Source of the DNA: Pseudonocardia sp. EC080619-01
Lineage (GTDB): Bacteria > Actinomycetota > Actinomycetes > Mycobacteriales > Pseudonocardiaceae
DNA: 64,000 nt
Assembly (NCBI RefSeq): GCF_001420995.1
Contig: NZ_CP012184.1
Location: 3,766,501 to 3,830,500, forward strand
Reading direction: 5' to 3'
Of the stretch, positions 56,632-63,567 are shown one piece after another (position 1 is the first letter of the stretch; every line of letters starts with the position of its first letter). A program made the translations under genes and the position numbers. The notes under the pieces were generated by a model that was given only the letters and a program-made list of their open reading frames with translations, made no database searches and was not told where the DNA came from.

Positions 56632-58407
56632 TCAGTCCTTGATCTCGCAGATCACGGTGCCCTGGGAGATCGAGGCGCCCTGCTCGGCGTCGAGGCCGGT
56701 CACGGTGCCGTCCTTGGAGGCGGTGACCGGGTTCTCCATCTTCATCGCCTCGAGGACGACGATCAGGTCGCCCGCCGAGACGGTGTCGCCGTCGACCACG
56801 GCGACCTTGATGATCGTGCCCTGCATCGGCGCGGTGACGGCGTCGCCGGACACCTTGGTCCCGCCGCCCTTGCCGGTCCGCTTGCGCGGCGCGGCCTTCG
56901 CCTGGCCGCCACCGCCGCTGCCGCCGCCCAGGGCGAGATCACCGGGCAGCGAGACCTCGAGCCGCCGGCCGCCGACCTCGACGACCACGGACTGCCGCTC
57001 GCCGGTCTCGGCGTCGGCTCCGGCGCCGCCCTCGAACGGGGGGACCGTGTTGTCCCACTCGGTCTCGATCCACCGGGTGTGCACGGCGAAGTCGTCGCCG
57101 GTCTCCGCGGCGTAGGCCGGGTCGGAGACGACGAGCCGGTGGAAGTCGAGCACGGTGGCCATGCCCTCGACCTGGAACTCCGCCAGCGCGCGGCGGGACC
57201 GCTCCAGCGCCTGCTTCCGGTCCGCGCCGGACACGATCAGCTTCGCCAGCAGCGAGTCGAACTGCCCGCCGATGACGGAGCCGTCCTCGACACCGGCGTC
57301 CATCCGCACGCCCGGGCCCGACGGGTACCAGATCCGCTCGACGGTGCCGGGGGCCGGAAGGAAGTTGCGGCCGGCGTCCTCGCCGTTGATCCGGAACTCG
57401 ATCGCGTGCCCGCGCGGCGCCGGGTCCTCGGTGAACTCCAGCTCCTTGCCCTCGGCGATGCGGAACATCTGACGGACCAGGTCGATGCCGGTGGTCTCCT
57501 CGGAGACCGGGTGTTCGACCTGCAGCCGGGTGTTCACCTCGAGGAAGGTGATCATCCCGTCCTCGCCGACGAGGAACTCGACGGTGCCGGCGCCGTAGTA
57601 GCCGGCCTCCTTGCAGATCGCCTTGGACGCGTCGTAGAGCGTCTTCTCCTGCTCCTCGGTGAGGAACGGCGCGGGCGCCTCCTCGACGAGCTTCTGGAAG
57701 CGGCGCTGCAGCGAGCAGTCGCGGGTCCCGACCACGACGACGTTGCCGTGCTGGTCGGCGATCACCTGGGTCTCGACGTGCCGCGGGCGGTCGAGGTAAC
57801 GCTCGACGAAGCACTCGCCACGGCCGAACGCGGCGGTCGCCTCACGGACGGCGGACTCGTACAGCTCGGCGACCTCGGAACGCTCGCGGGCGACCTTCAT
57901 GCCACGGCCACCGCCGCCGAACGCGGCCTTGATCGCGACCGGCAGGCCGTACTCGTCGGCGAAGGCGAGCACCTCGTCGGCGCCGGAGACGGGGTCCTTG
58001 GTGCCGGGCACCAGCGGGGCGCCGGCGCGGGTGGCGATGTGCCGGGCGGTGACCTTGTCACCGAGATCGCGGATGGACTGCGGGGACGGGCCGATCCAGG
58101 TGATGCCGGCGTCGATCACGGCCTGGGCGAAGTCGGCGTTCTCCGACAGGAAGCCGTAGCCGGGGTGGATCGCGTCGGCACCGGCCTGCTTCGCGGCGCC
58201 GATGACCTTGTCGATGTCGAGGTAGGACTCTGCGGCGGTGGACCCGCCCAGCGTGAACGCCTCGTCGGCGAGACGCACGAACATCGCGTCCCGGTCCGGG
58301 TCCGCGTAGACGGCGACACTTCCCAGGCCCGCGTCCTTCGCAGCCCGGATCACACGGACGGCGATCTCGCCGCGGTTGGCGACGAGCACTTTGCTCAGTG
58401 CGGGCAC
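56632..58407 (-). CDS. accA3: Acyl-CoA (acetyl/propionyl) carboxylase alpha chain: biotin carboxylase + BCCP
   Basis: 591 residues from GTG 58407, preceded by GGAGGAG. Biotin carboxylase domain: [38 protein letters not shown]-grasp loop [12 protein letters not shown], and [13 protein letters not shown] Gly/Ala-rich linker (~505-525) leads to the biotinyl domain with EAMKMENPV, biotinylated Lys at residue 556. Length and order match AccA3-type alpha subunits, which with AccD subunits make malonyl- or methylmalonyl-CoA for lipids. It is monocistronic and preceded by its own promoter region. Confidence 0.97.
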
Positions 58408-58561
58408 GGTCGAACTCCTCCGGTCGCGAGCGCCGGCCCGATGCTCCGGCGCAGGGTTACCGGGGAGTGTAGGAGCGAGATCCCGGATAAACCCCGGGAG
58501 GGAGTGTGGTGATGGCAACGTCACCACCCGTCCGTGGTCCCCGCACCTGGTCGTGATCGGT

Positions 58562-59035
58562 TCAGAGGTGAGACGGGCCACCCCGCCACCACCGGTGGAA
58601 CCCCCGCGACACCGCCGACCGGCGGGACGGGGCGGTACGGCCGTCGTAGCGGAACGTGTGCTCCCGGTCGGCCAGCTCCCGGGACGCACCGGGACCGAGC
58701 GCCCCGGCGGCGTCGAGCTCGCGGGCCAGATCCCAGCCCTCGCGCTCCGCGCCGTACGGCGGCACACCCGCGAACCGGTCCGCGAACAGCCGTGGCCACT
58801 CCGGGCCGATGCCGGCCGCGAGGAGCGGCCACGCGGCCGCGGCGGCACCGGCCCGCTTCCGCAGCAGTGCCGTGCGGGTCGCGGTGAGGAGGTGGGTGGG
58901 GACACCCGCGGGGTCCGGCCCGCCGGCGACGAGTGCCGCGACGAGTGCGGCCTGCCGTCCGGCGAGGGAGCCGGCGGCCGGGGCCGGCCCGGGCGGCCGC
59001 GGGTCGTCGGAGCCGGGGCTCCACAGGGCGTTCAT
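58562..59035 (-). CDS. Small SCO6045-like protein, putative MNIO partner
   Basis: 157 residues from ATG 59035, overlapping the DUF692 stop by 4 bp (ATGA), so translation is coupled. The sequence is helical: [80 protein letters not shown], ending in a short Arg/Trp-rich tail. It resembles the C-terminal domain of SCO6045-type proteins, which are attached or adjacent to DUF692 enzymes. By analogy with MbnC/DUF2063-type partners of MNIO oxidases, it may recognise and present the substrate. Family assignment is from memory of the pattern, without a search. Confidence 0.65.
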
Positions 59036-59883
59036 CCCGGCCGCACCCGCCCGCGCCGGGCCGGGCCGCACGGTGACGGGTGCCCGGCCGCCGCCGCGAT
59101 CGCCGCCAGCTCCGCCCGCAGCTCGGCGGCCGGCGGGTAGCGGCCGTCGCGCTCCAGCATCACCGGCGGCGGCTCCGGCAGCCGGTCGACGGCGTGTGTC
59201 AGCAGGTCGAGGACGGCGGCCGGGACCGGACCGGTGTGCGTGTCGTGGACCAGGCCGTCGTGCTCGGCGCCGCCCGCGACGTGGCAGTACGCGATCGCCC
59301 CCGGCGGGAGCCCGGCCAGCAGCGCGTCCATCTCCGCCCGCGGTTCGCGACCCCGGTTGCGGGCGTTGACGTGCACGTTCGCCACGTCGAGGAGGAGCGG
59401 CGCGCCGGTCCGCTCGTGCAGGCGTTGCAGGAACTCGGCCTCGCCGAACTCGTCGTCGGGCCAGTCGAAGAGGGCCGCGATCGGTTCGAGGGCCAGCGGC
59501 ACATCGAGCTCGGCGCGGGTGCGCGCGACGTTCGTGGCCAGCACGTCGAGCACCTCCCGGGTCCGCGGCAGCGGGAGCAGGTGACCGGCCTCCAGGCCAC
59601 CACCCCGGACGAACGCGACGTGCTCGCTGACCAGCACCGCCCGGGTCGCGGACGCGCAGGCGGCGAGGTGCGCGACCCGTGCCGGGTCGGGGGCCTCCGG
59701 CGATCCGAGCGACAGCCGCACCCCGTGGACGACGACGTCGCGCTGCACCAGCGACGCGGGCACGGCGTCCGGCCGGATCGACTCGGCGATCACCTCGTGG
59801 AACCCGAGATCCGGCACGTCGTCCAGGACGGCCGCGATCGGGCTCCGCCAACCCGCGCCGGTGCCCCTCGGGCCCCCGCTCAT
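59032..59883 (-). CDS. DUF692 multinuclear iron-dependent oxidase (MNIO), MbnB/TglH-like
   Basis: 283 residues from ATG 59883 (a GTG at 59892 is also possible). A TIM-barrel MNIO pattern with the metal ligands kept: VVHGVRLSLGS (His53), SEHVAF (Glu87, His88), LEPIAALFDW (Glu133), LLLDVANVHVNARN (Asp166, Asn169), YCHVAGG (His201), VHDTHTGPV (Asp214, His216) and LERDGRYPP (Glu244). Characterised relatives (MbnB, TglH, ChrH) oxidise cysteines in peptide substrates, with a partner protein. It lies between a protein with a Gly/Cys tail and a partner-like protein, all co-directional, which points to modification of that tail. Substrate is inferred from context. Confidence 0.92.
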   Translation of the reverse strand: MSGGPRGTGAGWRSPIAAVLDDVPDLGFHEVIAESIRPDAVPASLVQRDVVVHGVRLSLGSPEAPDPARVAHLAACASATRAVLVSEHVAFVRGGGLEAGHLLPLPRTREVLDVLATNVARTRAELDVPLALEPIAALFDWPDDEFGEAEFLQRLHERTGAPLLLDVANVHVNARNRGREPRAEMDALLAGLPPGAIAYCHVAGGAEHDGLVHDTHTGPVPAAVLDLLTHAVDRLPEPPPVMLERDGRYPPAAELRAELAAIAAAAGHPSPCGPARRGRVRPG

Positions 59884-59920
59884 CGCCGCCACCCGTGACC
59901 ACGCGGACGTGCACGGCCCG

Positions 59921-59970
59921 GGCCGTCCCCGCAGCTCCACACCCCCACAGGAGGAGCTGCGAGGACGGCC
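59921..59970 (-). promoter_or_regulatory. Long hairpin between the tail-bearing gene and the MNIO gene (attenuator candidate)
   Basis: An 18-bp stem (59921-59938 with 59953-59970) closes a 14-nt loop. The one non-complementary pair is C-A in the plus-strand RNA but a G-U wobble in the minus-strand RNA, so the hairpin is fully paired only in the direction these genes are read. It has no U-tract, so it may act as a partial terminator or 3' stabiliser favouring the upstream membrane gene over the enzyme. Confidence 0.6.
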
Positions 59971-60023
59971 ACCCCGATCCCCCGGGGCAGTCCGTCGGGC
60001 GGTGCCCGGTCGCGGCGCCCACG

Positions 60024-60953
60024 TCAGCCGCCGCACCCACCGCCGCCGCCACCGCAGCCCCCGCCGCCACCGCTGCTACCGCCGTCGCCGCCGGAGAAGC
60101 CGGAGAAGCTGGTCGAGCCACCGGAGCCGGACCAGCCGCCGCCGAGCGCCGCCATCTTCTGCGCGGCGAGCTCCTCGGCGAACGCGGGCTCGGCCGCGAG
60201 CATCGCCCCCATGCCGAACGCGCCGACGCTCAGCGCCGCGGCGGTCGCACCGGCCGCGGTCCAGTCCGGGCGCATCGTGGGTGAGAGCGACTCGTGCAGC
60301 ACCCGGACGGAGCCGAGTGCGGCGGTCCCGGCCGCGGTCCGGTGCGGGACCCGCGCGGCCAGCACCGCCGTGACCACCCCCAGCACGACGACCGTCAGGA
60401 ACAGGTAACCGACCGGACGGCCTGCGCCGAGCCCGGCCCCGATCCGCACCACCCCGACCAGCGCGACGGCCCCCGGCAGCCATGCCGCGGCCCGGTACCG
60501 GCGCCGGTCTGCGGGGGAGAGGAGCAGGCCGGCCGTCTCCAGCCGCTGCGCGATCCGGGCCAGCTCGGTGCGGACCGGCTCGTGGGTGCGCAGGGCCCGG
60601 CCGGGCGTCAGCCGCTGTGCCGAACGGTGGATGGCGCGCTGCAGCGGGGTCGCCGCCCGGGTGAGCGGGCCCCCGGCCCGGACCTGGCCGGTCGTGCGGC
60701 CGGAAGTGATCACGGTCCCGTCGACGTGCATCGCCGACAGCGCCGCGTACACGGCGAGATCGGGGCCGCCGTTGAGGTAGGCGACGTCCTCCGGGCGGGT
60801 GTCGAGCCCGCGCCCGCCGCGGCGGTCGCCCGCCGCGATCCGGTGCCGCCGGTGGACCGCGGCCACGACGGCGGCCGACCCGGCGACCAGGACGAGGACC
60901 AGGAACGTCGGACCCGGGATCCCCCAGGTCGCGTCGGTGAGGTTCGTGCCCAT
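60024..60953 (-). CDS. TIGR04222-like membrane protein with Gly-rich, two-cysteine C-terminal tail
   Basis: 309 residues from ATG 60953, with AGGGGG upstream; a GTG at 60962 leaves no room for that site. Helices: 15-33, ~156-201 (a pair) and 235-252. Residues 48-75 (GLDTRPEDVAYLNGGPDLAVYAALSAM) match the conserved start of the TIGR04222 domain. After a segment MLAAEPAFAEELAAQKMAALGGGWS, residues 271-309 are Gly/Ser with Cys300 and Cys307 (GGGGGCGGGGGGCGG) at the very end. The tail sits after an odd or even number of helices that I cannot fix, so its side of the membrane is open. The cysteines are likely targets of the downstream DUF692 oxidase. Confidence 0.88.
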   Translation of the reverse strand: MGTNLTDATWGIPGPTFLVLVLVAGSAAVVAAVHRRHRIAAGDRRGGRGLDTRPEDVAYLNGGPDLAVYAALSAMHVDGTVITSGRTTGQVRAGGPLTRAATPLQRAIHRSAQRLTPGRALRTHEPVRTELARIAQRLETAGLLLSPADRRRYRAAAWLPGAVALVGVVRIGAGLGAGRPVGYLFLTVVVLGVVTAVLAARVPHRTAAGTAALGSVRVLHESLSPTMRPDWTAAGATAAALSVGAFGMGAMLAAEPAFAEELAAQKMAALGGGWSGSGGSTSFSGFSGGDGGSSGGGGGCGGGGGGCGG

Positions 60954-61068
60954 CTCCACCACCCCCTGCGGCGACGTGACACTTCGTCGTTCGAAGTAGT
61001 GTGCGCCCGGTCACGGCGGTGACCATCCGATTTCACCGAGACTTGAGGTTCCGCGGAGACGAACGGAC

Positions 61069-61095
61069 GGGGCCGCATCCGCGGCCCCGCCCGTC
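61069..61095 (-). terminator. Terminator downstream of sufE
   Basis: GGGGCCGC (61069-61076) pairs with GCGGCCCC (61081-61088), extended with imperfect pairing on the outside; it follows the sufE stop by about 21 bp on the minus strand. Confidence 0.6.
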
Positions 61096-61116
61096 GGCGT
61101 GAGGTGTCCTGCCCGG

Positions 61117-61566
61117 TCAGGCGGTGGCGGCCCGGACCTGGTTCTTGATCCGGGCGAGCATCGCCGAGATGCCGCGGAGCCGCAGCGGGCTCACGGCCTC
61201 GGCCAGGCCGAGATCGGTGTAGAAGTCGTCCTGGACGGCCAGGACCGTCGCGGCCGGCTGCCCGTCCAGGCCGGTGTACATGATCGACGCGAAGCCCCGG
61301 GTCGTCGGTGCCTCCCTGGGCGCCGAGAAGAACAGGTGGACCGGGCGGTCACCGCCGTCGTCGACCTCGACGGTCAGGAACAGCGGCGACTGGCACTCGT
61401 GCACCTGCTCCATCGTGTCCGCGGCGTCGGCGTAGCGCTCCGGCAGGTCCGGCAGCTCCTGGGACAGCTCCAGCAACAGCTGCAGACGGTCCTTCGGGCC
61501 GACGGCGGCGAAGTCGTCGACCAGCTCGGCGAGCTTCGGGGGGAGCGTCTCGGTACGGTCCGTCAC
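61117..61566 (-). CDS. SufE-family sulfur acceptor protein
   Basis: 149 residues from GTG. Fold markers: [37 protein letters not shown], then the catalytic region [17 protein letters not shown] with the sulfur-accepting Cys, [14 protein letters not shown], and [19 protein letters not shown]. SufE accepts persulfide sulfur from cysteine desulfurases for Fe-S assembly. Here it overlaps the sseA stop (GTGA), suggesting it may take sulfur from, or give it to, the rhodanese. The same pairing occurs in mycobacteria (Rv3284/Rv3283). Confidence 0.93.
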
Positions 61567-62453
61567 GCCGACCCGCGCCCCTCACCCTGCACGATCGGGA
61601 CCCGCACGGCGTTGCCCCACTCGGTCCAGGAACCGTCGTAGTTGCGGACCGAGTCGAAGCCCAGCAGGTAGGTCAGCACGAACCAGGTGTGGCTGGAACG
61701 CTCACCGATCCGGCAGTAGGCGACGACGTCGTCGGAGGGCTTCAGGCCCTGCTCCTGCTCGTAGATCGCCGACAGCTCGGCACGGGTCCTGAACGACCCG
61801 TCCTCGGCGGCGGCGCGGGCCCACGGCACGCTCGCGGCGCCCGGGATGTGGCCGCCGCGGACGGCGCCCTCCTGCGGGTAGTCCGGCATGTGCAGCTTCT
61901 CGCCCGTGTACTCCTGCGGGGAGCGCACGTCGACGAGCGGCTTGCCCAGGTGGGCGAGCACGTCGTCCTTGAACGCGCGGATCCGCGCGTCGTCGCGCTC
62001 GACGACCGGGTAGTCGGCCGGCTGCGGGGAGGGGGTGTCGGTGGTGGTCTCGCGGCCCTCGGCGATCCACTTGGCGCGGCCGCCGTCGAGCAGCCGGATG
62101 TCGGCGTGGCCGAACAGCTGGAACACCCACAGCGCGTAGGCGGCCCACCAGTTGTTCTTGTCGCCGTAGACGACGATCGTGGTGTCCCGGCCGATCCCGC
62201 GCTCGGACATGATCTCGGCGAAACGGGTGCCGTCGACGTAGTCGCGGGTGACGGGGTCGTTCAGCTCGGTGTGCCAGTCGACCTTCACCGCGCCGGGGAT
62301 GTGGCCGGTCTCGTAGAGCAGGACGTCCTCGTCGGACTCCACGACCACGAGGCCGGGATCCTTCAGGTGCTCGGCCAGCCAGTCCGTGGTGACCAGGCGC
62401 TCGGGGTGCGCGTACTCGGCGAGCTTCGGGTCGGAGTCGTTCGCGACAGCCAT
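61563..62453 (-). CDS. sseA: Thiosulfate/mercaptopyruvate sulfurtransferase (SseA-like, tandem rhodanese)
   Basis: 296 residues from ATG 62453. Domain 1 (to ~145): [41 protein letters not shown], without a Cys. Domain 2 (~165-290): [29 protein letters not shown], and the active-site loop [13 protein letters not shown] with the nucleophile Cys. Tandem architecture and the CRIGERSS loop are typical of thiosulfate sulfurtransferases. Coupled to sufE. Confidence 0.94.
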
Positions 62454-62482
62454 GGCGCGAGGGTAACCGCGGGGCCCGACAC

Positions 62483-62941
62483 TCACACCGGGATGTCGGA
62501 GTCGTCCCCGTCGGCGCGCGGTCCGTGGATGCGCCGCTCGGACTCGTCGATCCGCAGATCGTCGATGCTCGCCTCGCGCCGGTGCATCAGGCCGTTCTCC
62601 GCGAACTCCCAGTTCTCGTTCCCGTAGGAGCGCCACCACTGCCCGTCCGCGTCCCGGCACTCGTACTGGAACCGGACGGCGATCCGGTCGCCCCGGAAGG
62701 CCCAGAGCGACTTGCGCAGCGCGTAGTCGAGCTCCCGCTCCCACTTGGCGGTCAGGAACGCGACGACCTCCTCGCGGCCGTGCACCCAGGTGTCGCGGTT
62801 CCGCCACACCGTGTCGGGTGTGTAGGCGAGCGCCACCTTCCGCGGGTCCCGGGTGTTCCAGGCCGCCTCGGCGGCGAGCACCTTCGCCCGTGCGGACGCC
62901 TCGCCGAACGGCGGGAACGGGGGACGCGACTCGTCGGTCAC
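62483..62941 (-). CDS. DUF1348/NTF2-like protein
   Basis: 152 residues from GTG 62941, overlapping the maf stop (GTGA). NTF2-like alpha-beta fold with conserved DUF1348 blocks: [89 protein letters not shown], and [11 protein letters not shown]. Small-molecule binding or hydrolase roles are possible. It links maf with sseA in a compact operon. Confidence 0.9.
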
Positions 62942-63567
62942 GGGTTCTCCTTGCTCCAGAGGTCGACCACGCTCACGCCGATCCCGCCGAGCAGCCGGCG
63001 GACCAGCGGGAGGCTGATCCCGATCACGTTCGACGGGTCGCCGTCGATGCCCTCGACGAACCACCCGCCCAGCCCGTCCAGTGTGAAGGCCCCGGCGACC
63101 TTCAGCGGCTCGCCGCTCGCGAGGTAGGCGTCGAGCTCGGCGTCGGTCGGCTCGGCGAAGCGCACCCCGGTGCCCGCGTGGCCCTCGGCCTCCCGCACGA
63201 CGGCGCCGCCGGACAGCCGGAGCACCGCGTGCCCGGTGAGCAGCTCGCCGTCGCGGCCCGCCATCGCCTTCCACCGGCGTCGTGCGGTCTCGGCGTCGTG
63301 CGGCTTGCCGACCAGGTCGCCGTCGACGAGCAGCATGGAGTCGCAGCCGATCACCACGGCGTCCGGGTGGTCCCCGGCGATCCGCTCCGCGACGGCGGCG
63401 GCCTTGGCGGCGGCCAGCAGCGTCACGGTGCGGGCGGGGTCGGCGTCCTGGTGGTCGGCGAGGAGGGCGTCCTCGTCGACGTCGGAGACCTCGACGAGCG
63501 GGTCGGCGCCCGCGGCGCGGAGGACTCCGAGGCGGGCGGGGGAGGCGGAGGCGAGGACCAGGCGCAC
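62938..63567 (-). CDS. maf: Maf-family nucleoside triphosphate pyrophosphatase
   Basis: 209 residues from GTG 63567. [19 protein letters not shown] opens the active site; [19 protein letters not shown] follows with the conserved Asp; [50 protein letters not shown] is the conserved C-terminal half. Maf enzymes hydrolyse non-canonical or canonical dTTP/UTP-like nucleotides and are linked to septum control. Starts 10 bp after the LuxR-type gene. Confidence 0.94.

Follow-up and report, generated by a model that had tools for sequence, protein, structure and literature searches.

What does an MNIO enzyme of the DUF692 family act on when the gene beside it encodes a membrane protein? The question is raised by a locus of Pseudonocardia sp. 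EC080619-01 (contig NZ_CP012184.1, positions 3,766,501 to 3,830,500; this whole stretch of 64,000 nucleotides is called the window below), in which three consecutive minus-strand genes encode a TIGR04222 membrane protein with a Gly/Cys tail, an MNIO enzyme and a small partner-like protein. An earlier note on this DNA had proposed that the Cys residues of the tail are the substrate. The same idea is already a published hypothesis, since TIGR04222 proteins with MNIOs have been described and their Cys tail has been suggested as substrate (Antoine et al. 2025, PMC12452194), and the window is therefore one more member of the group set out in the accessible part of that paper. Our comparison of genomes strengthens this hypothesis as it is stated there. 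From sequence comparison we consider it quite likely that the enzyme acts on the tail.

The gene order, the ATGA overlap, the enzyme's presumed ligands and the Cys tail were all confirmed where the earlier note had placed them. The membrane protein (309 residues, 60024 to 60953) belongs to TIGR04222 according to NCBIfam (E 3.6e-37; 128.2 bits, cut-off 43). Hydropathy predicts three transmembrane helices, at about 14-41, 158-177 and 182-200, and a helix/strand domain (54-155) sits between the first and the second. The AlphaFold2 (AF2) model has a predicted local distance difference test score (pLDDT) of 86; in the tail the score is 56, dropping to 42 from residue 271 onward, suggesting disorder. 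This Gly/Ser tail (60024 to 60140) gives the protein the C-terminus GGGGGCGGGGGGCGG, which closes with CGG. Its Cys300 (60056-60054) and Cys307 (60035-60033) are the sole cysteines of the protein, and their TGC codons lie amid GGN codons. The TIGR04222 fold had no match in the PDB at E<=0.001 (best E 2.2). A sub-threshold match (E 0.026) was seen to DUF2207_C, another membrane family, whose DUF2207 proteins likewise have a Gly-rich C-terminus.

The enzyme gene is listed as an open frame beginning at 60036, with a likely GTG start at 59892 (59032 to 59892). Its product matches PF05114 (E 3.5e-68, 230.2 bits, cut-off 25), and profile matches connect it with 3bww (E 1.9e-42), TglH (8hci, E 5.1e-34) and MbnB (7dz9, E 3.9e-13). 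Nine residues, H56, H91, E136, D169, N172, H204, D217, H219 and E247, are present in the window protein and invariant in 20 homologues; they were matched to TglH and MbnB by eye in alignments, and we take them to be the metal ligands. The partner gene (157 residues, 58562 to 59035) follows directly, its start sharing the ATGA with the stop of the enzyme gene.

The survey of such neighbourhoods covered 120 genomes from the family, 68 of them with TIGR04222 and 60 with MNIO, and 296 from the class, where the two were found in 100 and 66. The 180 loci fetched are most of the listed places with TIGR04222 above the cut-off, plus 11 chosen for an MNIO gene without TIGR04222 nearby; most weak matches, places beyond those listed and other MNIOs (e.g. 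bufferin-like ones) were left aside. The fetched loci and the window were searched with profiles of the three window proteins, and a Gly/Cys tail was scored if at least two Cys lay within a segment of 20-40 residues, 70% of them Gly, Ser or Cys, among the last 80 positions. Tail and MNIO were found together in 93 of the 168 TIGR04222 loci, the Cys tail only in 22, MNIO only in 13 and neither in 40. Counted by genome (135), both were present in 95, the tail only in four, MNIO only in 15 and neither in 21 (Fisher 2e-11, kinship ignored), and by majority in each of 54 genera the numbers were 40, 0, 2 and 12 (Fisher 2.7e-10, kinship again ignored). The tail is present on 139 of 179 TIGR04222 genes in MNIO loci versus 23 of 66 elsewhere. 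The co-occurrence of TIGR04222, Cys tail and MNIO, for which the earlier note had proposed to look, is thus present in most genera, and no genus has the tail only. The two MNIO-only genera are g68, probably Streptomyces, with 12 of 21 genomes lacking the tail, and g145, in which MNIO lies beside a DUF2063 gene. We also examined 80 loci from GTDB, which lean to this MNIO type because they were picked by MNIO similarity. TIGR04222 was found in 74 of them; five of the six misses start at a contig end and the one in L382 is real. The Cys tail was found in 71 of these 74: in L337 it is interrupted by masked letters, in L361 it lies in another frame, and the absence in L338 is real.

The tail itself has a regular build. 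When 54 homologues are aligned, all of them have Cys307 and at least 90% have Cys300; such a low-complexity alignment flatters Cys conservation, the terminal CGG being independent of it. Among 235 Cys tails (162 from the survey, 73 from GTDB) the final Cys lies exactly two residues from the end in 132, and spacers are mostly of 3-7 residues. Cys is followed by Gly in 827 of 1036 cases and preceded by Gly in 510 and Ser in 479. In the survey, 129 of 130 Gly-rich ends encoded in MNIO loci contain at least two Cys, versus 20 of 34 elsewhere, and the sole exception in an MNIO locus, L124, lies beside a frame-broken MNIO.

The small protein is nearly constant beside the enzyme, which bears out its description as a partner in the earlier note. 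Its profile matches 115 of the 118 survey loci holding MNIO and none without MNIO; the three misses are L236 (contig end), L296 and L302 (both without TIGR04222). It is present in all 80 GTDB loci; of 36 further MNIO loci 31 have it, and the five without it (L411, L413-L416) also lack TIGR04222 and tail. The earlier note had held that a DUF692 enzyme without a fixed partner would speak against its proposal; the partner is fixed in nearly all loci, and these five are the part of the evidence that goes the other way. Enzyme and partner form a single open frame, enzyme first, in 31 survey loci and also in a Mycobacterium locus (L375); L124 is excluded from the 31 (otherwise 32) because its MNIO is frame-broken.

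As to what the partner is, the 157-residue protein alone gave no Pfam or NCBIfam match, and it has no sequence relative in the PDB (best E 0.11, unrelated). Its AF2 model is all-helical (pLDDT 88), and the first Foldseek match of this predicted fold in the PDB is MbnC from the MbnABC complex, a weak one (E 0.99; VIA Z 3.8, root-mean-square deviation 5.4, 115 aligned). The family matched by most of 24 partner relatives, namely four, is DUF2063, with a best E of 0.0067, a level that an unrelated family also reaches (E 0.0056). Profile comparison with DUF2063 was borderline (A2 P 7.5e-4, probability 25%; A3 P 0.12). DUF2063 has no match in the window's genome and is above the cut-off in 3 of 292 genomes of the class. 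We take the small protein to be a putative DUF2063-like partner.

The tail is found on other proteins, too. Two families, selected for their odd carriers, supplied the 36 further MNIO loci, some of which repeat survey loci (for example L398=L297, L405=L298, L408=L299, L422=L300, L416=L296). TIGR04222 was found in 13 of the 36, a tail protein with a single helix in another 13 (L388, L390, L391, L400, L405, L407, L408, L417-L422), the tail on a protein with no predicted helix (helix-less below) in two, and no carrier was found in eight; the tail is thus kept in 15 of 23 loci without TIGR04222. The single-helix carriers have 84-119 residues (with the starts chosen), carry basic residues as well as the Gly/Cys tail, and lie beside the enzyme pair. 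The helix-less ones (L389, L398) are longer, their hydropathy never reaches 1.6 and they have no Pfam match. None of the alternative carriers has a significant TIGR04222 match, three single-helix ones reaching E 1.3-3.7 only. On a tree of 134 MNIO rows, parsimony requires 12 changes of carrier and the single-helix carriers fall into four groups, which is suggestive of a carrier that changed repeatedly. The tail is the element that these carriers have in common and is therefore judged to be the substrate, and in sequence it looks portable among them. The earlier note had assumed an intact polytopic membrane protein as substrate; a protein of this type carries the tail in the window, but it is only one carrier among several.

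Genome comparison shows enzyme, partner and tail to be linked and the tail to be, as far as sequences tell, portable. Taken together with the predicted side of the membrane discussed below, we favour on balance the following reading. The MNIO enzyme and its small partner would form a complex, which would oxidise the Cys-Gly units in the tail of the neighbouring membrane protein while this tail is in the cytoplasm. The tail would serve as the substrate module, attached to the membrane by the TIGR04222 part as its carrier. For the reaction, its product and a role in metal binding we infer from HvfBC and BufBC: each Cys-Gly might become a heterocycle that contains sulfur and binds a soft metal such as copper, so that the end product would be a membrane-tethered modified tail. 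This heterocycle with a metal role is a tentative part of the reading. Close to an even call, and leaning slightly to the negative, is the more general idea that the tail is a portable C-terminal tag, modified in the cytoplasm by one MNIO-partner machine (in places a natural fusion) on any resident carrier, be it TIGR04222, single-helix or helix-less, which would give fixed intracellular and mostly membrane-tethered metal-binding groups and not a released peptide.

Several observations weigh against this reading. In 11 loci of g68 (L194, L196, L197, L202, L205-L208, L210, L214, L215) a fused MNIO-partner protein lies beside a TIGR04222 protein without tail Cys, the very arrangement that the earlier note had named as contradicting its proposal; these proteins keep three or four Cys elsewhere. 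The tail is absent from 40 of the 179 TIGR04222 genes in MNIO loci, many of them paralogues beside a tailed one, and eight of the 36 further MNIO loci are without tail or TIGR04222 gene, five of these without partner. PF05114 had no match in four of 99 Cys-tail genomes (G104, G096, G198, G401), although in G198 a contig end (L236) carries part of an MNIO gene. Independent pairs, taken from a tree of 231 TIGR04222 domains, went in the expected direction and were not significant (about 4.5 same versus 0.1 opposite, median p 0.125), and with MNIO counted genome-wide too few pairs differed (1.3 to 0.1; 0.7 to 0.0; median p 1). These phylogeny-corrected tests are underpowered. The interpretation in the earlier note consequently stands in part: this MNIO type goes with the tail, as co-occurrence, the invariant Cys307 and the same tail on other carriers indicate, but the carrier is not unique and the 11 Cys-less loci do not fit. 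Within the genus of the window, G104 (L126) lacks enzyme and partner together and keeps the membrane protein with three tail Cys. In G050 (L124), of the same genus, the MNIO gene is split over three frames amid single-frame neighbours and the tail has one Cys, not two; the frame breaks may be a sequencing error.

These exceptions could be explained if MNIO and partner modified an unlinked peptide, and the membrane protein were an exporter, anchor or receptor whose Cys bind metal or form disulfides unmodified. The 11 loci of g68, the persistence of TIGR04222 without enzyme and partner in G104 and the lack of a tail in 15 of 110 MNIO genomes with fetched TIGR04222 genes would all agree with this. 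However, where TIGR04222 is replaced beside the enzyme the tail stays in most loci (15 of 23), and clustering of open reading frames in 13 loci (the 11 of g68 plus L292 and L293) revealed no convincing alternative Cys-rich substrate, the two small clusters with 2-6 Cys (52 residues in nine loci, antisense; 59 residues in eight loci) looking like overlapping frames. We therefore regard the unlinked peptide as rather improbable. It is far less probable still that the tail is functionless low-complexity drift. Its length and Cys number do vary, with 1-10 Cys within the last 60 residues. Yet in the 235 tails 10.3% of the last 40 residues are Cys, versus 3.7% Ala, 3.1% Asp, 0.9% Val and 0.7% Arg for other residues one base from Gly codons (Ser, common throughout, reaches 24.6%), Cys307 is invariant, and of the 15 among 164 Gly-rich survey tails with fewer than two Cys, 14 (nine without any Cys, five with a single one) come from MNIO-free loci. 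A separate observation from the 13 loci with Cys-less or absent TIGR04222 is a DUF4142-like gene that clusters in eight of them (E 6.7e-20 in L206).

The favoured reading also requires that the tail is on the side of the enzyme. Hydropathy of the family gives three helices and a lower fourth segment, whose median score is 1.33; 47 of 157 proteins reach 1.6 or more, and the window protein has 1.58. Lys and Arg are dense after the first helix (2.0 per 10 residues), before the second (1.8) and after the third (2.1), and sparse before the first (0.6) and in the loop between second and third (0.5). All 155 proteins compared (two skipped) have them at a higher density on the predicted inside than on the outside, corresponding to an outside N-terminus and an inside end of the third helix; this density count replaces raw counts, which fitted 156 of 157 proteins but compared stretches of unequal length. 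With the third helix ending inside, the tail would probably be in the cytoplasm, where the enzyme is, and this prediction is weakest where the fourth segment is stronger (47 proteins). If that segment spanned the membrane, the tail would be outside. A published variant has MNIO modifying a tail that nevertheless ends outside the membrane, like the bufferins; the accessible part of PMC12452194 states this from the predicted topology of selected models, and the borderline fourth segment of the window protein together with the 47 proteins at or above 1.6 count in its favour and against a cytoplasmic tail. Speaking for the inside are the charges in all 155 proteins, 108 of which also have a fourth segment below 1.6, and the AF2 model of the window protein, which has three helices, with the fourth segment split in two (helices 236-246 and 248-254). 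The 13 single-helix carriers point the same way, in that the 25 residues behind the helix include 4-8 basic ones, while ahead of it there are 0 or 1 in 12 of the carriers (five in L390, whose start choice is doubtful), and in the window protein the basic residues likewise follow, not precede, the first helix. A tail outside the membrane appears to us the less likely of the two, with some doubt left by the borderline fourth segment.

The trio is found at the same genomic place in other Pseudonocardia, between two minus-strand genes that we judge to be syntenic neighbours outside the system: a SufE-like gene (61117 to 61566; PF02657 E 1.3e-30) and a gene (56632 to 58407) whose translation we take to be an accA3-like acyl-CoA carboxylase alpha chain. 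In L304 the carboxylase gene lies about 5 kb further on, and L358 ends before SufE. Sulfur genes directly adjoin the trio in the window, and it could be imagined that SufE and a sulfurtransferase feed the system, which would then be related to iron-sulfur or persulfide chemistry. In the 80 GTDB loci, however, the carboxylase gene is present in eight and SufE in seven of the eight Pseudonocardia loci, and neither in the other 72. Because the adjacency is confined to Pseudonocardia, we rejected SufE and the sulfurtransferase as functional partners, and there is hardly any chance that this explanation is correct. The cassette interrupts a housekeeping block of Maf, sulfurtransferase, SufE-like and acyl-CoA carboxylase alpha genes (56632-63567), an order that presumably exists without the cassette in Mycobacterium tuberculosis. 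A small gene between sulfurtransferase and Maf (62483-62888) is by eye what we take to be a DUF1348/NTF2-like one. General clustering of neighbours yielded mostly noise in GC-rich frames. In the genome of the window one MNIO and one TIGR04222 protein above the cut-off were found; a weak second TIGR04222 match (L002, C1:4234848-4235117) has 21.7 bits and is below the cut-off.

The products of the MNIO enzymes characterised so far are peptides, and many of these are exported. If the favoured reading is true, a widespread actinobacterial MNIO decorates resident membrane proteins, which would extend the family to intracellular protein modification. The portability of the tail offers a small test substrate in the form of the carriers with 84-119 residues, and the natural MNIO-partner fusions are a ready-made single-chain enzyme. 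For HvfBC such a fusion had to be made by hand, and according to the accessible text it gave high activity (PMC13419390). The predicted side of the membrane contradicts the inference published in PMC12452194 and is directly testable.

Among known systems, the closest are the TIGR04222-MNIO clusters of PMC12452194, which, as far as the available portion describes them, share with the window the membrane family, the MNIO, the lack of a DUF2063 gene and the Cys in a Gly/Ser tail. There the tail is called periplasmic, whereas here charge places it in the cytoplasm; and DUF2063-like PME-type 2 partners are reported there for at least 10% of the clusters, whereas here one partner family is found in nearly all MNIO loci examined. 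The natural enzyme-partner fusions and the other carriers of the tail go beyond that account in its accessible part, and its adjamnio-I family may overlap our single-helix carriers. The oxazolin and bufferin systems HvfABC and BufABC are alike in that an MNIO and a partner act on several Cys. HvfBC converts six C-terminal Cys of HvfA to copper-binding 5-thiooxazoles and needs the partner (PMC13419390), and the targets in HvfA lie in EGKCG repeats (PMC12668002), as far as these sources are accessible. The precursors of those systems are small and Sec-exported and the partner is a DUF2063-RRE protein (PMC12452194, same portion). Here, in contrast, the putative substrate is carried by a TIGR04222 protein and the partner has no DUF2063 match; the window membrane protein is not in the bufferin family, NCBIfam giving TIGR04222 only and Pfam nothing above the cut-off. 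MbnBC and TglHI, finally, likewise combine an MNIO with a structural partner, but they make peptide products, whereas in the present case a resident membrane protein would be modified.

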